Below, in pieces: positions 1 through 12,461 of a DNA stretch of 20,894 nt. Origin of the DNA: a virus; IMG/VR virus record IMGVR_UViG_3300017783_000266, positions 1-20,894 of that record. The stretch is one strand, 5' to 3'. Numbering within the stretch: the stretch's first letter is position 1; each line of letters starts with the position of its first letter. A program made the position numbers and the translations under genes. The notes beneath the pieces were generated by a model. The model was not told where the DNA came from. It saw nothing but the letters and a program-made list of their open reading frames with translations, and did no database searches.

Positions 1-483
1 TGGAGCCAGTTCTTTAGATACTTTGTAGAATTGCTCTACATCGTCACCAAAGACTTGTTTAGGCTTTTCTGTACTTCCATAGAAGTAAGTCATCAAAGCT
101 TGTTTAGCGTCTTTAGGATCAGCGTAATCTCCTAGTTTTTGACCAAGAAAACCATAAATATTTCCTCGATTTTTAAAGTCTGTTATACCGACATTAAACA
201 TGCCTATCTCACAACGAGATAACACTGACAAGATGGCAATACCTGAAGCAGATGCATCTCTTGAGCACATGTAACCTGAAGGCTTACCTTCTTGAGTATC
301 ACGTAGAGCCAAGATACCTGCAGTAAACATGTTAGGTTCTTTAGCTTTAGGGATCATTTCTTCCAATTCATTTATGTGAGTTTCCGTCCATAACAAACGT
401 TCTGAGTAAGTTAACTTATCTTTGCCAAATGAGTTGGCAATATCAATTTTCAAGTGATCCAAAGGTGAGTAAGAAGTTTTCAT
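1..483 (-). CDS. T7-like RNA polymerase, second subunit (N4 gp16 type), partial at window edge
   Basis: Catalytic half of the heterodimeric, single-subunit-family RNA polymerase (N4 RNAPII) that transcribes phage middle genes in the host cytoplasm. The first 161 residues are visible and the gene runs off the left edge; the N4 protein is about 400 aa. Residues 74-91 (SRDASASGIAILSVLSRC) match T7 RNAP motif A, with the metal-binding Asp at about 76. Residues 127-137 (KQALMTYFYGS) align residue for residue with T7 motif B, including the counterparts of Lys631 and Tyr639. Motif C must lie beyond the edge. The ATG at 483 has a GGAG ribosome site about 10 bases upstream. The partner subunit lies at 968-1888 on the same strand, separated from this gene by two small genes. 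The assignment rests on motifs I can read; equivalence to gp16 is inferred from the split arrangement. Confidence 0.88.
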   Translation of the reverse strand, partial: MKTSYSPLDHLKIDIANSFGKDKLTYSERLLWTETHINELEEMIPKAKEPNMFTAGILALRDTQEGKPSGYMCSRDASASGIAILSVLSRCEIGMFNVGITDFKNRGNIYGFLGQKLGDYADPKDAKQALMTYFYGSTEKPKQVFGDDVEQFYKVSKELAP

Positions 484-515
484 TTAAGTGTCTCCAAAAG
501 GGTGCAATAACTGGG

Positions 516-755
516 CTACTCGAATATCTCTATTCGGCTGTATATGTGGTTCATTGGAGCTACAAAAGCAACAAATCTAAACACTGTTTTTTTGTAGGTT
601 CCCTCAAAAGAAACCATTCTTTGGTTCTTAGTTTCACTTCGTTTAACTACTTCCAAAGTGTTTACCAAATCTCCATTAATACACTTACGCATATTGTGAA
701 GTATCTGCTCTTCAGTTACCGGAGTATGCGATAAGAAAGTTGCTTTTAGTTCCAT
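516..755 (-). CDS. Small conserved-looking phage protein, function unknown (79 aa)
   Basis: A 79-residue soluble protein with no signal peptide or membrane segment. It has a mixed helical N-terminal half (residues 14-37) and a probably beta-strand C-terminal half (residues 45-78). I do not recognise a family. The start is well defined: the ATG at 755 follows an AAGGAG ribosome site at ideal spacing, and that site overlaps the stop codon of the 46-aa peptide gene upstream, so the two are probably translationally coupled. It sits inside the RNA polymerase operon and its stop lies 32 bases before the start of polymerase subunit 2. A role linked to middle transcription is possible only from position. 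An opposite-strand reading frame over it (429-734) has no ribosome site and is a shadow. Confidence 0.8.
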   Translation of the reverse strand: MELKATFLSHTPVTEEQILHNMRKCINGDLVNTLEVVKRSETKNQRMVSFEGTYKKTVFRFVAFVAPMNHIYSRIEIFE

Positions 756-759
756 GGGT

Positions 760-900
760 TTACTCCTTGATTACCATTAATGAAATGAAAGAAATTGCAC
801 ATACCCAAATGGCAATATTTTTCAGTGGTTTGGTTTTACTCATCACTGCTACGCAAAAAGTAAGAAAAACCACTAAGGTCATGATTTGAATTAAAGTCAT
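760..900 (-). CDS. 46-aa two-helix membrane peptide
   Basis: A short gene whose ATG at 900 follows a GGAGAG ribosome site 7 bases away. The peptide has two hydrophobic stretches, about residues 2-19 and 28-44, joined by a basic loop (SKTKPLKN), so it should be an inner-membrane hairpin with the positive loop in the cytoplasm. The stop codon overlaps the ribosome site of the next gene. It lies between the two RNA polymerase subunit genes. Two-helix peptides of this size in phages can be holins, antiholins or membrane-disturbing host-takeover factors. The early or middle location argues against a main holin, but nothing in the sequence settles it. The coding call rests on the ribosome site, the coupling and the amphipathic pattern. 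Confidence 0.7.
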   Translation of the reverse strand: MTLIQIMTLVVFLTFCVAVMSKTKPLKNIAIWVCAISFISLMVIKE

Positions 901-917
901 TTTTACACTCTCCAGAA

Positions 918-941
918 GCTCCTAGAATCGTTTCTAAGAGC
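918..941 (-). other. 10-bp stem-loop before the 46-aa gene
   Basis: On the minus-strand RNA, bases 941-932 pair with 927-918 (ten pairs, one of them G-U) around the 4-base loop ACGA. The hairpin lies 26 bases past the stop of polymerase subunit 1 and ends close to the ribosome site of the next gene. There is no U-run after it, so it is more likely a processing or translation-control structure than a terminator. Confidence 0.45.
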
Positions 942-967
942 ATTTTGATTAAAGTCTTATGATTGGG

Positions 968-1888
968 TTAGGGGAGAATTACTTCTTTGTGAGCAAGCTC
1001 TACTGCAGCTTTACGGTAGTCATCGCCCTGAGTATTCACATGGTACCCTCGTGAATAGGTTCTACCTCTCTCACAATAAGAGTGAGTTAGGTAGAAATTA
1101 TGGGATTGAAGTTGAGCGTATAACTCAACACATTCCATGTTCATTTGATTAAAAGTTTCTAGTCTTTTAGACCGGTCAACTGAAGATTCACCTGCTTTCT
1201 CTTTCCATTTAGGTGCAGTATTTAAGAGCACATCTGTATTGAGTGAAAGCTCTACTGAATTAGCTCTATTCAAGTGATTTAGGTTTACTTCTTTAGAATG
1301 ATGTTTACCTTTTGATAGTACGGATCCTTTGATTGTGTAGTAACCTGTTTGGTTGTTTTTGGTTAACTTAGCTGGCTTACTTAAAAGTGGAAGATCGAAT
1401 TTAAGTTCATTTAAGTATTTCTGAGTAGAAGGGCTTATCAGAATCCTGTTTACCACTTTGATTGTGCCAGTATCACTATTCCTTGGCTCTATTATGTTGA
1501 AGTAAGGATCCTGAGACATTACAGAAATAATCTCAGTAGCCGATTCAATGTTTTGTCTATCTGTACTGTGGTTAAAGTCTCTGTAGATTTTTCCAACTAT
1601 CTCCGTAAAAGTGCACTCTTTTCTGTAAATTACATGTGCCAGTATTTTCCAGCATACCCTTTCAAGATCCATTTCACGAAGGTCTAAGTATCTTTCTTGC
1701 TTAGAGTGCCAAATCTTTATTTCTCCATTTACTGCGTAAGTAAAATCATTAGTACTAAACAGTTCCTTTAATTTAGATAAAGTGGCATCTAAATAAGGTT
1801 CTAAAGAGCTTTCATAAATGTCTTTGATTGTTTCATCTAGGTGGTATAAAGAGTATTTAAACTCATTGTTTATCTGAGCTGATCTCAT
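968..1888 (-). CDS. T7-like RNA polymerase, first subunit (N4 gp15 type)
   Basis: N-terminal half of the two-subunit phage RNA polymerase; it should form a heterodimer with the product at the left edge. The 306-aa length is close to N4 gp15 (about 270 aa). The diagnostic part is the C-terminus: residues 272-276 (CERGR), followed by a YSRGYHVNTQGDD segment, match the T7 RNAP DxxGR region (DWRGR, then a FNPQGND segment). The first position of DxxGR is Cys here. The protein ends just after this motif, which is where the split occurs, and motifs A and B resume in the second subunit. The rest has no signal or membrane segment. The ATG at 1888 has an AGAGG ribosome site and overlaps the end of the upstream 105-aa gene by 26 bases, implying coupled translation. 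Confidence 0.87.
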   Translation of the reverse strand: MRSAQINNEFKYSLYHLDETIKDIYESSLEPYLDATLSKLKELFSTNDFTYAVNGEIKIWHSKQERYLDLREMDLERVCWKILAHVIYRKECTFTEIVGKIYRDFNHSTDRQNIESATEIISVMSQDPYFNIIEPRNSDTGTIKVVNRILISPSTQKYLNELKFDLPLLSKPAKLTKNNQTGYYTIKGSVLSKGKHHSKEVNLNHLNRANSVELSLNTDVLLNTAPKWKEKAGESSVDRSKRLETFNQMNMECVELYAQLQSHNFYLTHSYCERGRTYSRGYHVNTQGDDYRKAAVELAHKEVILP

Positions 1889-2180
1889 GGTTGACCTCTC
1901 TTTCTATTTGTTTACTAATTGAGTTACCTGCAATTTCATGATCTATCTTTCTTTGTAAGTCTTCCAGATCGTCAATATTTGGCGGGTAAATAAAAACAAT
2001 CTCATTTGCTAACATTGCAAACTTTAATTGGCTAACTTTATCGAGTTGATGAAGCTCAGCATAATTGAATAAGACCATGTAGAAGTCATGCTTCTTCCAG
2101 TTTTCCATCCAATCTTCTGTTTCTACCTTTTCAAAGTATCTATCTCGTTCTTGGTCTAGTACTTTCAGTAGATAATTCAT
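1863..2180 (-). CDS. 105-aa hypothetical protein upstream of the RNA polymerase genes
   Basis: A mostly helical, acidic 105-residue cytoplasmic protein rich in aromatic residues (Tyr, Phe, Trp) in its first half, with a charged C-terminal tail. I do not recognise a family. The ATG at 2180 has an AGGGAG ribosome site at good spacing. The 3' end overlaps polymerase subunit 1 by 26 bases. It is the first gene after the terminator at 2198-2226, so it heads the polymerase transcription unit. No N4-type hairpin promoter lies directly in front of it; the unit is probably reached by read-through from the early genes or by a promoter I cannot identify. Confidence 0.8.
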   Translation of the reverse strand: MNYLLKVLDQERDRYFEKVETEDWMENWKKHDFYMVLFNYAELHQLDKVSQLKFAMLANEIVFIYPPNIDDLEDLQRKIDHEIAGNSISKQIEREVNHEISSDKQ

Positions 2181-2197
2181 GTATTATCTCCCTGCGC

Positions 2198-2226
2198 AAA
2201 AACATAGAGGAAGCCGAAGCCTCCCC
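2198..2226 (-). terminator. Intrinsic terminator with TTCG loop after the early cluster
   Basis: On the minus strand GGGGAGGC and GCTTCCTC pair (8 pairs, two G-U) around a TTCG tetraloop. TATG and five T then follow. The hairpin starts 8 bases after the stop of the 143-aa gene and separates the early cluster from the RNA polymerase unit. Confidence 0.8.
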
Positions 2227-2233
2227 ATATTTT

Positions 2234-2665
2234 TTAACCGAATAGATCGATTAACGTTTCATTACGTTCACCAGCCTTACCGACTGATACCTCCGCACTG
2301 ATCACGTCATTTACTTTGTCCGCACCATGCGTACGCACGGCTTCAATAAGCGACATGGTAGGGATATGTTTACCAGTGAACTCTTTAGAGTCCTTATCCC
2401 AATTATCAAGACATACATTCTTTTGGGTAAGCTTGATACCCTTTAAACGCAGCTTATGACCGTTTACAGCAATATTTACATTTAGATAAACAGCATCACC
2501 CTCAATGTCGTATTTACTGGTTTCAGAAACAGCTTCGACAGCTGTCTCATTGTCACCAAATACGTCAATTACATCTTCAGTAATTTGTACGCCTTTACTG
2601 ATCAATGCCTCTTGTGAAGCTTTTGGTAACTTGTCGAAATCAGATTTTGGTAATGTAGTAGTCAT
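2234..2665 (-). CDS. 143-aa early protein, function unknown
   Basis: A 143-residue acidic soluble protein. Residues about 50-85 look like a beta-rich core (YLNVNIAVNGHKLRLKGIKL), followed by a helical segment with TMSLIEAVRTHG. I do not recognise a family. An upstream ATG at 2707 would add 14 residues, but it lies about where transcription from the hairpin promoter at 2714-2728 should begin and has no ribosome site. The ATG at 2665 has AGGA about 9 bases upstream and is preferred. Parts of the gene (for example 2281-2340) are richer in G+C than neighbouring genes, which may reflect a different origin. It is the last gene before the early terminator and has its own candidate virion-RNAP promoter, so it is probably strongly expressed early. 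Confidence 0.82.
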   Translation of the reverse strand: MTTTLPKSDFDKLPKASQEALISKGVQITEDVIDVFGDNETAVEAVSETSKYDIEGDAVYLNVNIAVNGHKLRLKGIKLTQKNVCLDNWDKDSKEFTGKHIPTMSLIEAVRTHGADKVNDVISAEVSVGKAGERNETLIDLFG

Positions 2666-2713
2666 GGTTCTATTCCTATTTTGTGAAAGTTTCGGATGCA
2701 AACACATCCAACG

Positions 2714-2728
2714 GGATACGTAGTATCC
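2714..2728 (-). promoter_or_regulatory. Candidate N4-type virion-RNAP early promoter hairpin 1
   Basis: Stem GGATAC / GTATCC of 6 bp with a 3-base loop (TAC on the minus strand, central base A). N4 virion RNA polymerase recognises a 5-7 bp hairpin with a 3-base loop centred about 11-12 bases upstream of the start site. That would place +1 near 2710, giving a leader of about 45 bases before the ATG at 2665. Confidence 0.7.
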
Positions 2729-2757
2729 GTTAAAGAAACGAATGAAATGAGTAAGGG
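2729..2757. repeat. Promoter-linked box, copy 1
   Basis: A 29-base segment directly behind the hairpin promoter. It matches 23 of 29 positions with 3091-3119, which sits in the same place behind promoter hairpin 2. Shared core: GAGTAAGG after a variable ACGAA segment. Role unknown. Confidence 0.65.
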
Positions 2758-2784
2758 TTTTAAATAACCCTTAGACAAGGGTTA
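2752..2784 (-). repeat. Two overlapping, mutually exclusive hairpins
   Basis: Three iterated arms can pair in two ways: TAAGGGTT (2752-2759) with AACCCTTA (2766-2773), or TAACCCTT (2765-2772) with AAGGGTTA (2777-2784). Both are perfect 8-bp stems, with 6-base and 4-base loops. They lie between two early genes and could act as an attenuator or weak terminator, although there is no clear U-run on the minus strand. Confidence 0.55.
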
Positions 2785-2866
2785 CTTTTAATAATTCACC
2801 ATGTTCTTCTACGGTGAATCTAGTTTTGTTTTTTCTTAGAAATTTAAAGAATTTCTTTTTTGTCAT
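2771..2866 (-). CDS. Possible 31-aa basic peptide
   Basis: ATG at 2866, stop TAA at 2771-2773. The peptide starts with a Lys/Phe-rich basic segment (MTKKKFFKFLRKNK) and ends with an acidic to neutral half. It starts 17 bases after the stop of the 53-aa gene, and its stop lies inside the hairpins at 2752-2784. The ribosome site is poor, with only GGTT upstream, so translation would need coupling to the upstream gene. It may be a real micro-peptide or a chance frame in the 3' leader. Confidence 0.3.
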   Translation of the reverse strand: MTKKKFFKFLRKNKTRFTVEEHGELLKVTLV

Positions 2867-2883
2867 GTATTCATAACCGTGTA

Positions 2884-3045
2884 TTATGAACATTTTATTA
2901 GTCTCGCTCTTATTGTTTTAACCTCTCTAAGAGAGTCTAATAGTCTGAAGGCTCTTTCTTCTGGAAAGCGAGTTGCTTCCGATTTAAAAGGTGTGATTTT
3001 TTCTTGTGCTACGTATCCTTCGGATACTATTTCGATTAGGTACAT
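2884..3045 (-). CDS. 53-aa early protein, function unknown
   Basis: A 53-residue basic protein with no membrane segment. It has a short beta-like N-terminus (MYLIEIVSEGYVAQEKI) and a helical, Arg/Lys-rich C-terminal half. It resembles the many small unassigned early proteins of lytic phages; I do not recognise a family. Support for coding is good for its size: a GGAG ribosome site about 8 bases from the ATG, and a candidate early promoter hairpin at 3076-3090 that places transcription start about 27 bases ahead of the ATG. A small hairpin (GTATCC-GAA-GGATAC on the minus strand) is embedded in codons 7-11. Confidence 0.68.
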   Translation of the reverse strand: MYLIEIVSEGYVAQEKITPFKSEATRFPEERAFRLLDSLREVKTIRARLIKCS

Positions 3046-3075
3046 CCCTATCTCCAGTTAGTTGTCTATCTATCT

Positions 3076-3090
3076 AAATACGTAGTATTT
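3076..3090 (-). promoter_or_regulatory. Candidate N4-type virion-RNAP early promoter hairpin 2
   Basis: Stem AAATAC / GTATTT of 6 bp, loop TAC on the minus strand. Loop and inner stem are identical to hairpins 1 and 3, while the outer stem bases differ but stay paired, which is covariation. It drives the 53-aa gene (ATG at 3045). Confidence 0.7.
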
Positions 3091-3119
3091 GTTAGAGACA
3101 CGAACGCAGTGAGTAAGGC
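3091..3119. repeat. Promoter-linked box, copy 2
   Basis: Second copy of the box seen at 2729-2757 (23 of 29 identical), in the same position behind promoter hairpin 2. Weaker relatives lie at 3925-3945 and 4393-4414. Confidence 0.65.
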
Positions 3120-3121
3120 AT

Positions 3122-3148
3122 AGCAGTTTAATGACCTGCTTAGGTCAG
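3122..3148 (-). repeat. 3'-UTR hairpin repeat, copy 1
   Basis: A 25-base repeat (3124-3148) starting 4 bases past the stop of the 70-aa gene. AGCAG (3122-3126) pairs with CTGCT (3136-3140) around the loop TTTAATGAC. An alternative hairpin, TGACCT with AGGTCA, is also possible. The same loop is present at 3395-3425 with a different, still complementary stem. Confidence 0.6.
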
Positions 3149-3152
3149 AAAG

Positions 3153-3365
3153 TTATGCTTTTTTCCAATCACGGATGAAGTCATTAACTCCATCCTCGAA
3201 ATCCAAGTTTGGTACCTCGAAGAAGTACTCTTGAATGCCTTCTTCGCTTGGACGTTGATCATCAAGGAAGAAGAGGAAGGTTGTTAGTTCTTCATCTGGT
3301 TCCATGATTTCACGCTCTATAGCCATATCCATAGCACGCTGTAAATCATCACATAAATTTGTCAT
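3153..3365 (-). CDS. 70-aa acidic early protein, function unknown
   Basis: A strongly acidic 70-residue protein (many Asp/Glu, few basic residues) with helical segments at about 1-20 and 36-65 and hydrophobic or aromatic residues between acidic ones (TFLFFLDD, EYFFEVPNLDF). Small acidic early phage proteins are often inhibitors or DNA mimics that bind host enzymes, but I do not recognise this one. The ATG at 3365 has a GGAG ribosome site. No hairpin promoter separates it from the 89-aa gene upstream, so the two are probably one transcript from the promoter at 3728-3742. A copy of the 3'-UTR hairpin repeat follows its stop. Confidence 0.8.
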   Translation of the reverse strand: MTNLCDDLQRAMDMAIEREIMEPDEELTTFLFFLDDQRPSEEGIQEYFFEVPNLDFEDGVNDFIRDWKKA

Positions 3366-3394
3366 AATATTTCTCCGATAAATAAATTAATGAA

Positions 3395-3425
3395 TGAACC
3401 AGTTTAATGACATGGTTCAGGTCAG
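3395..3425 (-). repeat. 3'-UTR hairpin repeat, copy 2
   Basis: TGAACCA (3395-3401) pairs with TGGTTCA (3413-3419), 7 bp, around an 11-base loop containing TTTAATGAC, the same 9 bases as in copy 1. Copy 2 begins 4 bases past the stop of the 89-aa gene, matching copy 1's placement. Confidence 0.6.
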
Positions 3426-3429
3426 TGTG

Positions 3430-3699
3430 TCAGCATATTTGATCGAGGTCTGCATCCCCATACAAATCTACTTCTTTTACTGAATACTCATACCCTGCTG
3501 GATGAGGTTGTTTTTCCATTAAACGCTTTGCAGCGTTCAAAGCGTTCAGTTCACTTACTGCTGCTATATGCAGTAAACAAACCGAAGAATCCATACAACA
3601 TACCTCTACGTCGTAGGGTACTGCAGGGAGGTCAGTAATTGTTGGATCGAAACCCAACACTTCATAGTCCATGAAGATTCCGAATTGAAATGTATCCAT
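3430..3699 (-). CDS. 89-aa early protein, function unknown
   Basis: An 89-residue acidic cytoplasmic protein. The middle (about 28-48) looks like two beta strands carrying a CC and a further Cys (VEVCCMDSSVCLLHI). A helix follows at about 49-63 (SELNALNAAKRLMEK), then another strand. This beta-beta-alpha-beta outline is common in small phage host-takeover proteins, but I do not recognise a named family. The ATG at 3699 has a GGAGAG ribosome site and lies about 25 bases after the predicted start of transcription from the hairpin at 3728-3742. The gene is probably co-transcribed with the 70-aa gene downstream. Confidence 0.82.
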   Translation of the reverse strand: MDTFQFGIFMDYEVLGFDPTITDLPAVPYDVEVCCMDSSVCLLHIAAVSELNALNAAKRLMEKQPHPAGYEYSVKEVDLYGDADLDQIC

Positions 3700-3727
3700 C
3701 TCACTCTCCGATTTAAGTAGTTCATTT

Positions 3728-3742
3728 GAATACGTAGTATTC
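3728..3742 (-). promoter_or_regulatory. Candidate N4-type virion-RNAP early promoter hairpin 3
   Basis: Stem GAATAC / GTATTC of 6 bp with loop TAC on the minus strand. It lies 28 bases upstream of the ATG of the 89-aa gene. Behind it, 3743-3760 (CGTTAAG... GGTAAG) is a shortened relative of the promoter-linked box. Confidence 0.7.
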
Positions 3743-3989
3743 GTTAAGATATCGGGTAAGTATCGGTGTTAGGGTGAAATAGGTTAGGATGCTTTTTGAG
3801 AAAGAATTGAAGTAACCTAGGTATTGGTATTACTTTTCTCTAAAAACCTCTCAGATCGCAATACAGAGAGTTCTACGGCATATCTATCTATCTATCTAAT
3901 ATGTGTTGTGTATGTGTTGATTGTGAATCACTGAAATGAGTATGGTTCTCATGGTTCAGTATGCTTGATGTGTGTGTGTGTGTGTGGGG
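3743..3989. other. Non-coding stretch with simple repeats in the early control region
   Basis: About 250 bases without a credible gene on either strand. It contains a TATC tetranucleotide run (3881-3898), a weak relative of the promoter-linked box (3925-3945), two GAACCAT copies on the minus strand near 3943-3958, and a (TG)9 run (3969-3986). It lies between the terminator of the 94-aa gene and promoter hairpin 3. It may be regulatory, part of a terminal repeat or linked to replication; the sequence does not decide. Confidence 0.5.
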
Positions 3990-4017
3990 AAGTAAAAGAA
4001 CTAACCCGAAGGTTAGT
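3990..4017 (-). terminator. Intrinsic terminator with TTCG loop after the first early gene
   Basis: ACTAACC and GGTTAGT pair (7 bp) around TTCG on the minus strand, followed by the T-rich tail TCTTTTACTT. The stem includes the stop codon of the 94-aa gene. Confidence 0.8.
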
Positions 4018-4297
4018 CCTGTTCCTGTTGCTTAACTTTAGCTTTAGGAGTTTTACCTAGATAGATGTCTAGGATGATTTGTTGTTCGTCAGAGTAAGCC
4101 TTCTTCTCTTCATGTAGGGCAAGTATTTCGTCCTTGATAGAATCACATTCAATTTCAGCTTCTAGCTTTGCCTTAGCTAGGTTGTATTCTTTAGTGGTAT
4201 CGTGAGTGATTTGCACACTTTCAGAGTATGCTTCTAACTTCTCTGATGCAACTGAGATAAGTGCTGTAGTAGCTTTGAATTTTGGTAACTTGATCAT
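4013..4297 (-). CDS. 94-aa coiled-coil protein, first early gene
   Basis: A 94-residue, highly charged helical protein. Residues about 15-80 have spaced Leu/Ile/Ala among Glu and Lys and should form a coiled coil or long helical hairpin; the tail is basic and then Gln-rich (KAKVKQQEQD). I do not recognise a family. The ATG at 4297 has an AGAGGA ribosome site. It is the first gene of the leftward arm, nearest the divergent region, with promoter hairpin 4 about 40 bases upstream and its own terminator at the stop codon. That gives a one-gene early transcript, probably among the first made after DNA entry. Confidence 0.82.
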   Translation of the reverse strand: MIKLPKFKATTALISVASEKLEAYSESVQITHDTTKEYNLAKAKLEAEIECDSIKDEILALHEEKKAYSDEQQIILDIYLGKTPKAKVKQQEQD

Positions 4298-4323
4298 GGA
4301 ATATTCCTCTTGTTAATGATGGG

Positions 4324-4342
4324 GTAGGTACCTCATACCTAC
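4324..4342 (-). other. Stem-loop competing with promoter hairpin 4
   Basis: GTAGGTA (4324-4330) pairs perfectly with TACCTAC (4336-4342) around CCTCA. It shares bases 4338-4342 with the promoter hairpin, so the two folds exclude each other. Confidence 0.45.
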
Positions 4343-4350
4343 GTAGTAGG
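4338..4350 (-). promoter_or_regulatory. Candidate N4-type virion-RNAP early promoter hairpin 4
   Basis: Stem CCTAC / GTAGG of 5 bp with loop TAC on the minus strand. It keeps the TAC-TAC-GTA core of the other three hairpins with a different outer stem. It lies 40 bases upstream of the ATG of the 94-aa gene and is the outermost of the set. Confidence 0.65.
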
Positions 4351-4377
4351 AAATTAAAGGGGGGGTATTCCCTTTTA

Positions 4378-4393
4378 CCCTTCGACCGAAGGG
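4378..4393. other. 7-bp inverted repeat
   Basis: CCCTTCG / CGAAGGG separated by two bases. A weak copy of the promoter-linked box (4393-4414) begins at its end. Confidence 0.45.
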
Positions 4394-4454
4394 AGACACT
4401 GAACCCGTGAGTAATTATGGTAATCGCAAAAAACCTGAAGGTGAGAATAATTAT

Positions 4455-4482
4455 CATAAACTTACTGTCGTAAGTATTTATG
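4455..4482. other. Bulged stem-loop in the divergent region
   Basis: CATAAA-CTTAC pairs with GTAAG-TTTATG (11 pairs, a 2-base TA bulge) around TGTC. It directly precedes the AT-rich inverted repeat at 4483-4519. Confidence 0.45.
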
Positions 4483-4519
4483 AAAAATAGATTGATCTAA
4501 AAATGTTGATCTATTTTTT
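4483..4519. terminator. AT-rich inverted repeat, possible bidirectional terminator
   Basis: AAAAATAGAT (4483-4492) pairs with ATCTATTTTT (4509-4518); the run of T continues on the plus strand and the complementary run of A gives T on the minus strand. It lies between the divergent early and late arms and could stop transcripts entering from either side. The stem is AT-only apart from one G-C pair, so strength is uncertain. Confidence 0.5.
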
Positions 4520-4651
4520 GAATTAGCTTTCAGCTCCTTGGTTCGTTATGCTTGCGCAATCCCTCCGCAAGAAATTCCCCTAATATTCCTCTTATTATTA
4601 TTTAGTTAATAGATTACACTTTGAGCAGTCATAAGAAGAGAGTTAGTTAGT
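4520..4651 (+). other. Leader/upstream region of the late gene arm
   Basis: No gene. It contains a 6-bp stem-loop (CTTGCG 4551-4556 with CGCAAG 4566-4571) and AT-rich sequence before the first late start codon. A late promoter is expected here or just upstream, but I cannot assign -35 and -10 boxes with confidence. Confidence 0.4.
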
Positions 4652-4927
4652 ATGAAAAGTACAAGTAAAGTGGTGATTAAAAGTAATGGTCTAAAGGCTA
4701 TAAATTCTGATGATAGTTATGCAGTTAGTGTGGTTCTGGTAGGTACCTTACTAGGGGCTGATTTGACTTTAGGCTATGTAGACTCTGAAGGTACTTTCTT
4801 TCCTTTTGTAAATGGAGAGTTAGAAGAGGGGGGTCAGTATGAGGTGAGACATGGAATGGGGGTAACTGTTTATGTGAAAGCAGAGGGAGTGACTGGAAGT
4901 ATTGAGTTGAGGGTAGGGGGTATCTAG
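4652..4927 (+). CDS. 91-aa beta-rich protein, probably structural
   Basis: A 91-residue, mostly beta-strand protein at the start of the late arm. Alternating hydrophobic strands with Gly/Asp turns (about 25-45, 60-75 and 77-90, such as SVVLVGTLLGADLTLGYVDS) resemble small immunoglobulin-like or fibre-accessory beta domains encoded next to phage tail genes. I do not recognise an exact family. There is no signal peptide. The ATG at 4652 has an AGAG purine site further upstream than usual. The stop is followed after one base by the ATG of the 61-aa gene, so the two are coupled. Confidence 0.72.
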   Translation: MKSTSKVVIKSNGLKAINSDDSYAVSVVLVGTLLGADLTLGYVDSEGTFFPFVNGELEEGGQYEVRHGMGVTVYVKAEGVTGSIELRVGGI

Positions 4928-4928
4928 T

Positions 4929-5114
4929 ATGTCGCACCCAGAAGAAGGTATTGTAAAGCCTTCGGAGTCAGTGAGTGTAGGGGTTGTATCTAATACGATA
5001 GTGATTAGACGTATTGTTATTGGAGGTTCTTCCGATGGTAGTCCTCCTGATGACGGGTTGTGGGATGATGATGAACTCTGGGACGATGATGCACTGTGGT
5101 ATGATGGCGATTAA
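4929..5114 (+). CDS. 61-aa protein with C-terminal LWDDD tandem repeat
   Basis: A 61-residue protein with two parts. Residues 1-33 contain a hydrophobic, beta-like segment (SVSVGVVSNTIVIRRIVIGG). Residues 43-60 are three tandem hexads, GLWDDD, ELWDDD and ALWYDG, encoded by an 18-base period at 5055-5108. The acidic, Trp-containing tail could be a docking peptide or metal-binding segment. I know of no family. The ATG follows the previous stop by one base, so translation is probably coupled. It sits in the late arm between a beta-rich small protein and a fibre-like protein and may be a minor virion component. Confidence 0.68.
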   Translation: MSHPEEGIVKPSESVSVGVVSNTIVIRRIVIGGSSDGSPPDDGLWDDDELWDDDALWYDGD

Positions 5115-6021: not shown

Positions 6022-6357
6022 ATGGAACTAGATAATTCTGTAAAAGGTAAAGTTACTAGTGTTTCCGAAGTTGATGGTACCGGTATCACCGACCATATTG
6101 GTTTTATTGCTTTACCTACTCATCCTAATTCTCTGTCTTATGGACATGGCGAATTGTTTTTTAGGGATAAGTGTGAGTTAGTAGATGGCTCAGTTGTACC
6201 TAAGCAAGGGGATACTGAATATCGTATCAACCTTGAAGAAATTACGGCACATACTTTTGAAAATGGAGTAACAGGAGGTCAGGTGTTAGAGGCAATTAAA
6301 GAAGCAACTATCTTGGCTCGTATGGGAGTTTTTAAAAACAAAATTACTCAGGATTAG
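6022..6357 (+). CDS. 111-aa protein, function unknown
   Basis: A 111-residue soluble protein. The N-terminal 75 residues look beta-rich with several His and Gly (TDHIGFIALPTHPNSL, YGHGELFF). The C-terminal part (about 75-105) is helical (NGVTGGQVLEAIKEATILARMGVF). I do not recognise a family. It starts 7 bases after the fibre-like gene, behind a GAGG ribosome site that overlaps that gene's stop codon, so it belongs to the same transcript. A virion or assembly role is likely from position only. Confidence 0.72.
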   Translation: MELDNSVKGKVTSVSEVDGTGITDHIGFIALPTHPNSLSYGHGELFFRDKCELVDGSVVPKQGDTEYRINLEEITAHTFENGVTGGQVLEAIKEATILARMGVFKNKITQD

Positions 6358-6816: not shown

Positions 6817-7500
6817 ATGCAATTATCGGTAGATCTTTTACAAAAAACTGTCCCTAAGAGTATCCGAAGCAGGATTACCCAAGAGTTTGTAGACAAAATA
6901 AATAAGTCAGTGGCAGATCCTTACCTTGGAGAATCTATCCAAGAAAATATACTTAGCTACTCCCATGTACTTGCCGAAGGCAAGTGGAAACTTGATAGTT
7001 ATATTGATGCAGTCAAGTATGTATCTTTTAAAGTTACGGGAATGAGTAATCTTCAAGCCTACACTAAAACGTTCCCTGATAGATACACAAAATTCAAAGC
7101 TCAAGGGGTACAAGATAAAGACATTGCGAGCTATGTTACTTCCTACAATAAAAATAAGTTGGTAAACTTAATCTATGAACAGTCCTTGGTTCCTACTTAT
7201 GTTTTAAATGCCCATTTACATCAAGAAGCTTTGAATGTGCAGGCAGATCTTATGAGAAATGCCCGTAGTGAGAAAGTTAGGTCTGATGCGGCTAACTCTC
7301 TTCTTACTCATTTGAAACGCCCTGAAGCAGCAAAAGTAGAGTTAGACGTTACGGTTAAAGAGTCTCCAGTTATCGCAGAACTCCAAGAAACAATGTTTAA
7401 CTTAGCAAAACAGCAGAAAGAAAAAATCATAGAAGGCACGGTTACGTCTAAAGAGATAGCCCACAGTGCTATTTTATCTTCGGGAGATTCGGATGATTAA
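6817..7500 (+). CDS. Putative terminase small subunit (N4 gp69 position)
   Basis: A 227-residue, mostly helical protein directly upstream of the large terminase, overlapping it by 8 bases. In N4-type genomes this slot (gp69) precedes TerL (gp68). Small terminases recognise phage DNA and load it on the motor, using an N-terminal helical DNA-binding part, a helical oligomerisation core and a C-terminal tail for TerL. The layout here is compatible: a basic helical region with AYTKTFPDRYTKF at about 80-95, long helices at 115-170, and a charged tail ending SSGDSDD. I see no classic helix-turn-helix that I can point to, so the name rests mainly on context. The ATG at 6817 has a GGAG ribosome site. 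Confidence 0.55.
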   Translation: MQLSVDLLQKTVPKSIRSRITQEFVDKINKSVADPYLGESIQENILSYSHVLAEGKWKLDSYIDAVKYVSFKVTGMSNLQAYTKTFPDRYTKFKAQGVQDKDIASYVTSYNKNKLVNLIYEQSLVPTYVLNAHLHQEALNVQADLMRNARSEKVRSDAANSLLTHLKRPEAAKVELDVTVKESPVIAELQETMFNLAKQQKEKIIEGTVTSKEIAHSAILSSGDSDD

Positions 7501-9120: not shown

Positions 9121-9831
9121 ATGAAACTGATTGAAATTTTTGACTCTCTTTCTTATGGGGAGTTATCTCAGCTTTCGATAGGAAATGCTGAAAGCACAGG
9201 TATTAAAGAAGAGGATCAACCTAAAGTAATAACTCACATTAACTTAGGCTTACTGGAATTGCATAAACGTTTTGATTTGAAAAGAGGTTCTTTGATTTTG
9301 CAAATGTATGAGCAGATCATGAATTACGAATTAAGACCGGATTTTGCGGTTAGCAACTTGGAGTCATTGGAGCCAATAAAATATATTGTGGATACTCCGT
9401 TAGAGCCATTCCAGGATGATGTGCTTAAAATTGAAAGGATTTTTGCTGAGTCAGGAGGGGAGTACATTTTAAATAATGAAAATGAATATAACTCATTACA
9501 CACACCTACTCCGTTGACTTTGCAGATTCCTTTGCCTCAAGCTGAAAATGTAGTAGAGGTAGAGTACCGGGCAACTCATCCTCGGATACCTGTTAGAGGA
9601 GTAAATCCTTTAACTTACGAAGTTGATTTACCTTACCCTTATTTAGAAGCATTGATTTATTATGTAGCCTCTCGTATGTTTGCCCCTTTAAACGATCCTC
9701 AGGCACCGTCACAAGAGTCCCAGATGTACATGCTTAAATTTGAAGCAGCTATCGCTAAATTAACAGAATTGGCTATAACCCCTGTAATGCAAAATACTAA
9801 AGAAAATTTTAAGAGGAATGGTTGGGTATGA
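9121..9831 (+). CDS. Putative head-tail adaptor / tail tube protein (N4 gp67 position)
   Basis: A 236-residue protein immediately after TerL. It starts with a helical region (residues 1-55, including HINLGLLELHKRFDL), continues with a beta-rich middle (about 85-165), and ends with a helix that carries the most family-like segment, DLPYPYLEALIYYVASRMF (about 170-188), followed by a long amphipathic C-terminal helix. Head-tail connector and tail-tube proteins of podoviruses show this kind of layout, and N4 has gp67 at this point. The exact role is inferred. A GAGGAG ribosome site precedes the ATG at 9121. The TGA stop overlaps the ATG of the tailspike gene (ATGA), so the two are translationally coupled. 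Confidence 0.62.
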   Translation: MKLIEIFDSLSYGELSQLSIGNAESTGIKEEDQPKVITHINLGLLELHKRFDLKRGSLILQMYEQIMNYELRPDFAVSNLESLEPIKYIVDTPLEPFQDDVLKIERIFAESGGEYILNNENEYNSLHTPTPLTLQIPLPQAENVVEVEYRATHPRIPVRGVNPLTYEVDLPYPYLEALIYYVASRMFAPLNDPQAPSQESQMYMLKFEAAIAKLTELAITPVMQNTKENFKRNGWV

Positions 9832-12461
9832 AGATTAATTCACACAAGGCACCTACAGCTTTAATTCAAAAGTATATTGGTAGTGCTTACGACACAGTAA
9901 AGTACGTAGCAGATAACCTTGAGGATTTACTTAAATTGGTAGATTCCGTAGGGCTGTATTTAGGAGCACAGCCTAATCCTCCTACTGTTGGTTTAAACGA
10001 TCAACCTTTAACTGAAGGTAATTATTACCTAAATAGTACTGACGGATTATTGTATTTTTACAGTGGCTCAGAATGGGTACCTTATTCTTTTGAAGATATT
10101 CAAAAGGTATTGCGTTTTGGGGATACTTATTTACCTTCTGAAGGTTATCCTACTCCTTCCTCTTCTACTGCTCCTGAAATTTGGTTATGCGCTGAAACAG
10201 GTACTATTTCAGGTACTTCGGTGGAGGTTACTGAAGGAAGCTATTTACTGTATTCTCCTGAAAACGGAGGCGGTTACACCTTGTTAAATCAAAAAGGAGA
10301 TAAAGGAGATAAAGGTGACACAGGAGATAAAGGGGATAAGGGAGATAAGGGAGATGCTGGAGATAAAGGAGATACTGGAGCTATTCCTCTCTATAGCGGT
10401 ATGGTAAACGCTATTGATAACTTAGATACTCTAAGTTTTGACGATATTTTTTATGTTTTAAACGAGGGTAAATTTTACCGGTTAAGCGACTCTCAAGACA
10501 CCTCAACTACTTCTGAAGAACTTGCAGCAGGTAAATGGGCTAATTGGATTGATCCTAAGCAAGAAGCTGCTTTAAGTTTTAAGAATCGAGATGAAGTAAA
10601 GACTCGTACCTTGTCTGGAGTTAACGATAAGCTAGTTGTTTTAAAGCCTAATATGGTTATTCATACGACAGGGTATGAGACTCCTGGAGATGGGGGTGGT
10701 GCAAGCTACTTTATTGTTGAAAATGTTTTCCCTAGTTTCAACCCTTACATTGATATTGATATTCCTGGGACAAACTTATACGCTATCTACCTTGGCTCGT
10801 CTATTTCTTTAGCTCAAGCGGGTGCTCCTTCAAATGACGTACTTGGTTTGGTAAACGTACTTAACAGTATCCAATCTAGCCGAATCAATACTTTTTATGT
10901 AGGAACCATGTACGAGTCTCAGAACCTTCCTTTTAAAGAAGGTGTAAGTTTTATTGGGTTAGATGAGTTTAATTCAGGATTTTTTGTTACCGACAAAGAT
11001 TTCAATATTGGGACTATGTTTGACTCTAGCTTGAGTGTTGACAGAGCCAAAACTGTGTTTGAAAACATTCGGTTTAGTCGTGTTAGTACTGGAGATCCGC
11101 TCACACCAGAAATAGGTAAACTCCTAGAACTCAGTAAAGTAAGTAACGTAGAATTTAAGAACTGCTTATTTGAAGACAAAGCAAATGGTTCAGTGAAAAT
11201 ATCAGGATGCCAAGATGTTTCGATTACAAATTGCAGGGTAGTAAACACCACTACATTTGATGTAAGTAGCCCAGGTTCTCTAGGTGTTCCAGCTTTTGAG
11301 TTAGTGGCTCCTTGTGCAGGTGTGGTTATTGAAGATAACTTCATCACCTCACATTACGCAGGAGTGTTAGGAAGATACGCTTCAGGGGAAGCCCCAGGGT
11401 TTAACTCAATTTCAATTAAACGAAATATCATGACTTCGATAGCGTACAATGGAATTTGCTTTGATGACACTTTGAACGTTACAGGTGGTGGTCATATTGT
11501 TCAGCAGTTAAATGTAGAGTTTAACACTGTGGTTTACAGCTCATCTTTTGCAGGATCTAGTTTACTAGGCAATCAGGCAAGAGGAACTGGATTCTATGGT
11601 ACTAACTTAGATGGAAGCACTGTCTCTCACAACGCATTTACAAGCGTAGGTACTGCTACAGTTTCAAATACTCCAGCAGCAGTGATTTTAAAAAATTACT
11701 TCAGAAAACTGGTCATTGAAGACAATAATATTAACGGTGGGGTTTACGGAGGTATTTTGACTTCTAGTTCTGCGCCTGATAGTAACTGTGAGGTGTTACA
11801 TAACAAGATTACCCATAGTGGTTCTTACAAAGGAATCAGCGTATTATCTTCTGAAAATACAAGTATCCACAATAACTCTATTGCATCAGGTGCTACAGCT
11901 ATCGATGTAAGAGCGTTAGAGGGCAACTGTAATAACGTAACGATTACCTACAATAAAACGAACCAACCTATCAATTTACTACAAGTAGACACTTATTCGG
12001 TCAAAGATAATACGATTAGAGGCAGTGTTGTAGATGAGCCTTTAGTTTTAAATGACTGCGAAAATGGCATTATTCAAGGCAATATTATTTACAAAAACGT
12101 AGATAACACTAATGGTATTATTGAGTTTATCGGAGGCAGTAACGCTTTAATAACAGACAACTTGCTAATGTCATCTTCAGGAGTTGATCTACCTGCTCAA
12201 ATACTGTCTGCAGGTAATGTGTCTAACGTAATATTTAAAGACAATACCTCAAATTGCTCTAAAGTAGTAAACGGTACGGGAACTGGTTCAGTTAAGTTAG
12301 ATGTTACCCATAGTGATATTCCCCCTAACTCAATTTTTAGAGTGGGGGATATTGTTAGAGTGGAGACTCCCGTAGCTGCAGGACACATGGGCAAAGTGTG
12401 TGTTGCAGGGGGTACTTCTACTTCAGCAGTGTTTAAGAAATTTGGGGCAGTAGAGGCATAA
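9828..12461 (+). CDS. Tailspike with collagen-like linker and right-handed beta-helix
   Basis: Receptor-binding tailspike, probably trimeric and possibly a polysaccharide-degrading enzyme. Residues 1-150 form a virion-attachment region (including GNYYLNSTDGLLYFYSGSEW). Residues 157-186 are ten Gly-X-Y triplets, mostly GDK, GDT and GDA, which is a collagen-like trimerising linker. After a small domain, residue about 282 starts a GYETPGDGGGASYFI segment typical of the head of tailspike beta-helices, followed by an SLAQAGAPSND entry motif. Residues about 370-830 show the repeating N-x-F/I pattern of a parallel beta-helix (NVEFKNCLF, VVIEDNFI, ISIKRNIM, SIHNNSI, VTITYNKT). The last 40 residues (GDIVRVETPVAAGHMGKVCV... 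FGAVEA) match a common tailspike end domain. The ATG at 9828 overlaps the previous stop; a TTG at 9822 is possible. Catalytic residues and substrate cannot be read off. Confidence 0.87.
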   Translation: MKINSHKAPTALIQKYIGSAYDTVKYVADNLEDLLKLVDSVGLYLGAQPNPPTVGLNDQPLTEGNYYLNSTDGLLYFYSGSEWVPYSFEDIQKVLRFGDTYLPSEGYPTPSSSTAPEIWLCAETGTISGTSVEVTEGSYLLYSPENGGGYTLLNQKGDKGDKGDTGDKGDKGDKGDAGDKGDTGAIPLYSGMVNAIDNLDTLSFDDIFYVLNEGKFYRLSDSQDTSTTSEELAAGKWANWIDPKQEAALSFKNRDEVKTRTLSGVNDKLVVLKPNMVIHTTGYETPGDGGGASYFIVENVFPSFNPYIDIDIPGTNLYAIYLGSSISLAQAGAPSNDVLGLVNVLNSIQSSRINTFYVGTMYESQNLPFKEGVSFIGLDEFNSGFFVTDKDFNIGTMFDSSLSVDRAKTVFENIRFSRVSTGDPLTPEIGKLLELSKVSNVEFKNCLFEDKANGSVKISGCQDVSITNCRVVNTTTFDVSSPGSLGVPAFELVAPCAGVVIEDNFITSHYAGVLGRYASGEAPGFNSISIKRNIMTSIAYNGICFDDTLNVTGGGHIVQQLNVEFNTVVYSSSFAGSSLLGNQARGTGFYGTNLDGSTVSHNAFTSVGTATVSNTPAAVILKNYFRKLVIEDNNINGGVYGGILTSSSAPDSNCEVLHNKITHSGSYKGISVLSSENTSIHNNSIASGATAIDVRALEGNCNNVTITYNKTNQPINLLQVDTYSVKDNTIRGSVVDEPLVLNDCENGIIQGNIIYKNVDNTNGIIEFIGGSNALITDNLLMSSSGVDLPAQILSAGNVSNVIFKDNTSNCSKVVNGTGTGSVKLDVTHSDIPPNSIFRVGDIVRVETPVAAGHMGKVCVAGGTSTSAVFKKFGAVEA

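Follow-up and report, generated by a model that had tools for sequence, protein, structure and literature searches.

Four inverted repeats upstream of early genes in an N4-like phage fragment are probable hairpin promoters for a virion RNA polymerase

Results

The stretch analysed here, referred to as the window, is the whole 20,894-nucleotide (nt) viral contig IMGVR_UViG_3300017783_000266, and this report concerns four short hairpins, each with a 3-base loop, that lie upstream of its leftward early genes (Table 1). From its sequence the contig is a fragment of a Schitoviridae (N4-like) genome; it was assigned to the N4-like group on the basis of RNAP1, one of two genes for RNA polymerase (RNAP) subunits at its left end. 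The rightward genes encode the terminase, the portal, the major capsid protein and further N4-type structural proteins, and the gene order, read from the terminase side, is that of N4. The record is only a 20.9-kb fragment, and its end falls inside a gp53-like gene, before the expected gene for the virion RNA polymerase (vRNAP). In phages PG11, BUCT194, pVco-5, phi50-12 and PT15-A5, the vRNAP gene (gp50) lies a few genes further on, and from this order it is expected a few kilobases past the contig edge. By terminase protein identity, the best isolate matches are Alteromonas phage PT15-A5 (64%) and Vibrio phage PG11 (63%), and the nearest contig is G001. A query of the viral contigs with RNAP1 found no close relatives, whereas the terminase query did find relatives.

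A preliminary description of this DNA had proposed that the four hairpins, with paired changes in their outer stems, are early promoters for a virion RNAP. The hairpins are present where it had placed them, and the paired changes are real. All four hairpins share the 9-base core TACGTAGTA and are spread over 1.64 kb; the window contains exactly four copies of this core, one in each hairpin. Perfect triloop hairpins with a stem of at least 5 base pairs (bp) are not in excess in the window as a whole (27 seen, 26.6 expected by chance). The number of identical hairpin cores is four, against a maximum of two in any of 1,200 simulated sequences (200 first-order and 1,000 second-order Markov runs). 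The loop and the three stem pairs next to it (C:G, A:T and T:A) are invariant in the four hairpins. Pair 4 varies between A:T and C:G and pair 5 between G:C, A:T and C:G, with pairing kept, and pair 6 is G:C or A:T and is unpaired in hairpin 4, so that three of the six stem pairs change on both sides, a covariation based on just four sequences. The + and - strand hairpins could not be told apart by their calculated DNA folding energies. Each hairpin stands upstream of a leftward gene, 29 to 49 nt before the start codon, and a plausible Shine-Dalgarno or ribosome-binding site precedes each of these genes. Counted from the loop centre, the distances are 56, 38, 36 and 47 nt for hairpins 1, 2, 3 and 4, so the location upstream of early starts given in the preliminary description stands and its range of 38 to 56 bases is widened slightly.

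As the early genes are on the - strand, their template is the + strand, in which the loop reads GTA; the loop TAC named in the preliminary description is the minus-strand copy, which is the non-template strand for leftward genes. The vRNAP of N4 binds its hairpin in the template strand, hairpin extrusion requires a C:G closing pair together with a 5' G and a 3' A in the loop, and the enzyme reads A or G at -11, G at -10, G at -8 and C at +1 (PMC4496689). In the window, the template strand reads C[GTA]G in four of four hairpins, so the closing pair and both ends of the loop follow the N4 extrusion rule. A 3-base loop on a stem of 5 to 7 bp upstream of early genes was likewise found in all four, as was the -10 G, which is the 5' loop base.

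The same scan recovered the known N4 promoters P1, P2 and P3 in their template strand (Table 1). Like these, the window hairpins are template-strand triloops with a 5- to 7-bp stem, a C:G closing pair, a 5' G and 3' A in the loop and a variable outer stem, and they are sited upstream of early genes, with a start, predicted in the window, about 11 nt downstream. They differ from N4 in the loop centre (T instead of A or G), in position -8 (A instead of G), in their AT-rich inner stem and in their number, which is four in this fragment and three in N4. A further difference is the spacing of the start motif. In N4, the first G of TGGA lies 11 nt from the loop centre and is the known, mapped +1, whereas in the window the spacing is 12 nt; the start-like sequences at that distance are TGGA at hairpin 1 and TAGA, TGAA and AGGT at hairpins 2, 3 and 4. 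Because this register is shared, the RNA would begin with two purines at all four hairpins.

An interrupted palindrome common to four upstream regions could also be a dimer site, in which case a phage or host regulator would bind the inverted repeats around TACGTAGTA in double-stranded form and control the early genes. A double-stranded operator, however, has no need of compensating changes in its outer arms, and the geometry, the polarity and the register of the start motif match those of N4 promoters. Moreover, related phages with other cores retain the same geometry. Palindromic operators are therefore quite unlikely.

Among these related phages, PG11 has three hairpins that share with the window the bases -9C, -8A, -10G and -12A and a pyrimidine at the loop centre (C[GCA]G), and in two of the three TGGA lies 12 nt from the loop centre. 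The loop centre is C and not T, the stems are GC-richer, and the hairpins are not annotated as promoters in the PG11 record. PT15-A5 has the same C[GTA]G loop as the window, and one copy contains the core of hairpin 4, CTAC-GTA-GTAG, but its stems are longer and GC-rich and there are two hairpins only. In Pseudomonas phage LIT1, our scan found a C[GAA]G hairpin upstream of gene 1 and C[GTA]G hairpins upstream of genes 12 and 13. In a published account (PMC3715699), hairpin promoters of LIT1 are predicted before the same three genes, and our hairpins were equated with those predictions by position only. A T at the loop centre thus also occurs in a well-known relative, although the stem sequences of LIT1 are unlike those of the window.

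For a family-wide comparison, a first set combined nine isolates with 26 loci, made up of the window and related viral contigs; in their early regions we counted the hairpins that precede a gene with a ribosome-binding site by 12 to 90 nt. In this set, C[GNA]G was on the template strand in 29 cases and reversed in 4 (binomial p 1.1e-5). Of 50 C[GNA]G hairpins, 15 had TGGA, positioned by its first G, at 9 to 15 nt from the loop centre, compared with 13 of 456 others (Fisher p 1.5e-9). Both p-values overstate the case, as the phages are related and thus do not count as independent, and as the set includes the window. A second set of six isolates, chosen afterwards, gave 11 template-strand and 0 reversed C[GNA]G hairpins. 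Template-strand C[GNA]G before early genes is present in N4, LIT1, PG11, PT15-A5, pVco-5, VCO139 and Pollock. Hairpin promoters were predicted earlier in the N4-like phages LIT1, LUZ7 and PEV2 (PMC3715699) and in Pectobacterium phage CB1 (PMC6027278); in the main texts of the open-access literature, we found no published family-wide comparison of such promoters. A separate scan of the viral contigs with the pattern ATACGTAGTATNNGTTA gave 68 matches, which is about the number expected by chance, and no contig with two hairpins of that core, and this pattern was set aside.

The strand bias also bears on a reading at the RNA level, according to which the hairpins would be structures of the 5' leader or of intergenic mRNA, for example sites of processing, or weak terminators that belong to the gene before. 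Their intergenic position would suit this, and such short stems would form in RNA too. However, no U-run follows the hairpins, a terminator scan passes them over and they have no Rfam match. What is conserved is the loop-adjacent sequence plus the downstream start motif, C[GNA]G is biased 29 to 4 in its orientation, and the scan that detects these hairpins recovers the proven DNA promoters of N4. RNA-level hairpins are therefore very improbable.

Some related phages carry a second class of loop, also on the template strand and upstream of early genes. BUCT194 (L151) and MS02 (L161) each have five C[TCT]G hairpins, and there are three C[TGT]G hairpins in FBKp27 (L162) and two C[TAT]G hairpins in MIF8 (L164). 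Among hairpins 12 to 90 nt from a gene, 13 of the 15 in the C[TNT]G class had a start-like motif at a distance of exactly 13 nt from the loop centre, against 3 of the 61 controls (p 3.5e-10); this grouping was noticed post hoc, and BUCT194 and MS02 are close relatives. Upstream of its leftward early genes, contig L120 has six C[TAC]G hairpins, which share the core AGCTACGCT, and the start-like motif is present in all three that lie 12 to 90 nt from a gene. Here it is the non-template strand that carries the GTA loop, the polarity opposite to that of the window.

The early genes that follow the hairpins have no family match (Table 1); the one after hairpin 2 is preceded by a strong Shine-Dalgarno sequence, GGAGATAGGG. 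These genes are in the same block as RNAP1 and RNAP2 and the middle promoters of this lineage are not known, so the hairpins might serve the RNAP1/RNAP2 enzyme as middle promoters, or be sigma-70 promoters of the host with incidental inverted repeats. The middle promoters of N4, however, are described as AT-rich double-stranded sites that other proteins melt, and not as hairpins (PMC4496689). Sigma-70-like sites are depleted in positions 1 to 5000 of the window (4 found, 14.8 expected from shuffles), as expected if the host RNAP leaves this block untranscribed. As the hairpins also fit the position and geometry of early promoters, there is hardly any likelihood that they serve either of these enzymes.

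Several other features were seen in the window. Terminator-like hairpins are enriched in positions 1 to 5000 (9, against 2.8 in shuffles). The element CGAAYGMARTGAGTAAGG, for which 0.08 matches are expected by chance over the whole window, is repeated upstream of hairpins 1 and 2, and looser copies lie near 3930-3945 and 4399-4416. Simple repeats, (CTAT)n and (TG)n, occur between early genes at 3062-3077, 3885-3899 and 3968-3988, and one of them adjoins hairpin 2. A 7-bp C[GAA]G hairpin of N4-like form at 6969-6985, inside the rightward gene 6817-7500, is probably due to chance. The open reading frame (ORF) at 9822-12461, between the head and portal genes, has a collagen-like GDKGDKGDT stretch and probably encodes a tail-fibre-like protein.

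Table 1. Features of the window and hairpins of related phages (aa, amino acids)
Sequence	Feature	Position	Strand	Remarks
Window	RNAP2, N4 gp16-like	1..483	-	phrog_2051 RNA polymerase, E 7e-45; cut by contig edge
Window	RNAP1, N4 gp15-like subunit of middle-gene RNA polymerase	968..1888	-	phrog_2166 'N4-like RNA polymerase', E 6e-64
Window	Terminator-like hairpin	2226-2207		After gene 2234..2665
Window	Early gene, 143 aa	2234..2665	-	After hairpin 1; ATG at 2665; no family match
Window	Predicted start, hairpin 1	~2709	-	TTGGATG
Window	Hairpin 1	2714-2728		Candidate promoter for - strand; + strand GGATAC-GTA-GTATCC; 6-bp stem
Window	Repeated element CGAAYGMARTGAGTAAGG	2739..2756	+	Just upstream of hairpin 1
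Window	Small early gene, 49 aa	2899..3045	-	After hairpin 2; no family match
Window	Predicted start, hairpin 2	~3071	-	ATAGATA
Window	Hairpin 2	3076-3090		Candidate promoter for - strand; + strand AAATAC-GTA-GTATTT
Window	Repeated element CGAAYGMARTGAGTAAGG, second copy	3101-3118		Upstream of hairpin 2
Window	Early gene, 70 aa	3153..3365	-	Second after hairpin 3; no family match
Window	Early gene, 89 aa	3430..3699	-	First after hairpin 3; no family match
Window	Predicted start, hairpin 3	~3723	-	ATGAACT
Window	Hairpin 3	3728-3742		Candidate promoter for - strand; + strand GAATAC-GTA-GTATTC
Window	Terminator-like hairpin	4020-3997		After gene 4013..4297
Window	Early gene, 94 aa	4013..4297	-	First after hairpin 4; no family match
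Window	Predicted start, hairpin 4	~4332	-	GAGGTAC
Window	Hairpin 4	4338-4350		Candidate promoter for - strand; + strand CCTAC-GTA-GTAGG; 5-bp stem
Escherichia phage N4 (NC_008720)	vRNAP promoter P1	90-102		Template GTTGC-gaa-GCAAC
Escherichia phage N4 (NC_008720)	vRNAP promoter P2	557-573		Template AAGAAGC-gga-GCTTCTT
Escherichia phage N4 (NC_008720)	vRNAP promoter P3	4546-4562		Template AAGCTGC-gga-GCAGCTT
Vibrio phage vB_VhaP_PG11 (OP745480)	Three hairpins			AGGCAC-gca-GTGCCT, AGGGAC-gca-GTCCCT, AGCAC-gca-GTGCT
Alteromonas phage vB_AemP_PT15-A5 (OP481051)	Two hairpins			GGGCTAC-gta-GTAGCCC, GGTGTCC-gta-GGACACC; 27-29 nt before a gene, the first at 29 nt
BUCT194	Five C[TCT]G hairpins	8556, 10907, 12501, 14476, 15110
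Contig L120	Six C[TAC]G hairpins	4364-4376, 4639-4651, 6072-6084, 7145-7159		Plus two shorter-stem copies

Discussion

The four hairpins very probably function as early promoters for the phage's own virion-packaged RNAP, of the N4 gp50 type. This is the idea of the preliminary description, which is supported by the identity of the genome and by the position, geometry and polarity of the hairpins, their start motif and their counterparts in relatives, and in which the strand had to be corrected.

Several observations weigh against this interpretation. The contig does not contain a vRNAP gene. A perfect TGGA is found at hairpin 1 only, and hairpins 2 to 4 deviate from it. In the second set of isolates, TGGA was not significantly associated with C[GNA]G (3 of 19, against 5 of 101 others, p 0.11), because four of the five matches among the others were C[TCT]G hairpins. 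Several relatives, such as G001, have no repeated hairpin cores, so that promoters cannot be called in all relatives. Finally, the loop centre (-11) is T in all four hairpins where N4 has a purine, and position -8, within the core TAC-GTA-GTA, is A in all four where N4 has G. The purine at the loop centre in the preliminary description had been read from the wrong strand; the features that do agree with N4 are the geometry, the C:G closing pair and the 5' G and 3' A of the loop. The hairpins thus fail on two tested features of N4's own specificity class, and the window therefore represents a variant of the N4-type hairpin promoters.

We propose that, as the DNA enters, the inverted repeats would be extruded under negative supercoiling. 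In the resulting hairpin of the template (+) strand, a C:G pair would close a GTA loop, which is one of the stable GNA triloops. Binding by the injected polymerase may depend on the shape of this hairpin and on its fixed bases, namely -9C, -10G and -12A together with the A:T and T:A pairs of the inner stem. RNA synthesis would begin at two consecutive purines (GG, AG, GA and GG) that lie downstream of the loop centre by about 12 nt, which would place the RNA starts 24 to 44 nt before each start codon.

To our knowledge, the base contacts of this type of polymerase are known for N4 only. When eight vRNAPs were aligned, the regions of the contacts K114, R119, W129, D901 and R904 were too diverged for a safe alignment. 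The catalytic residues K437, R440 and E557 are conserved in the same alignment and most sequences have Y or F at the place of W129. None of this was used as evidence. The variation between phages might reflect a two-part code in the Schitoviridae, for which we see even chances. In such a code, the loop frame would be kept for extrusion and shape, whereas the loop centre, position -8 and the start spacing would follow the lineage of the virion RNAP. The frame would be C[GNA]G on the template strand, some genera having C[TNT]G or C[TAC]G instead, and the spacing would be 11, 12 or 13 nt. If this is true, the window represents a lineage with C[GTA]G, -8A and a 12-nt spacing, and N4's GNA extrusion rule is broken in the phages with C[TNT]G hairpins, provided that this class holds.

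The N4 virion RNAP is the textbook example of an enzyme that recognises DNA through an extruded hairpin. In the window, the extrusion frame is kept and both contacted bases are changed, which would mean that the structural code can be separated from the sequence code. A change of specificity within this polymerase family would become testable with short oligonucleotides and with the relatives PG11 and PT15-A5. The comparison also offers a rule for annotating early promoters in this family, whose records rarely mark them: a template-strand C[GNA]G with a start motif 11 to 13 nt out.

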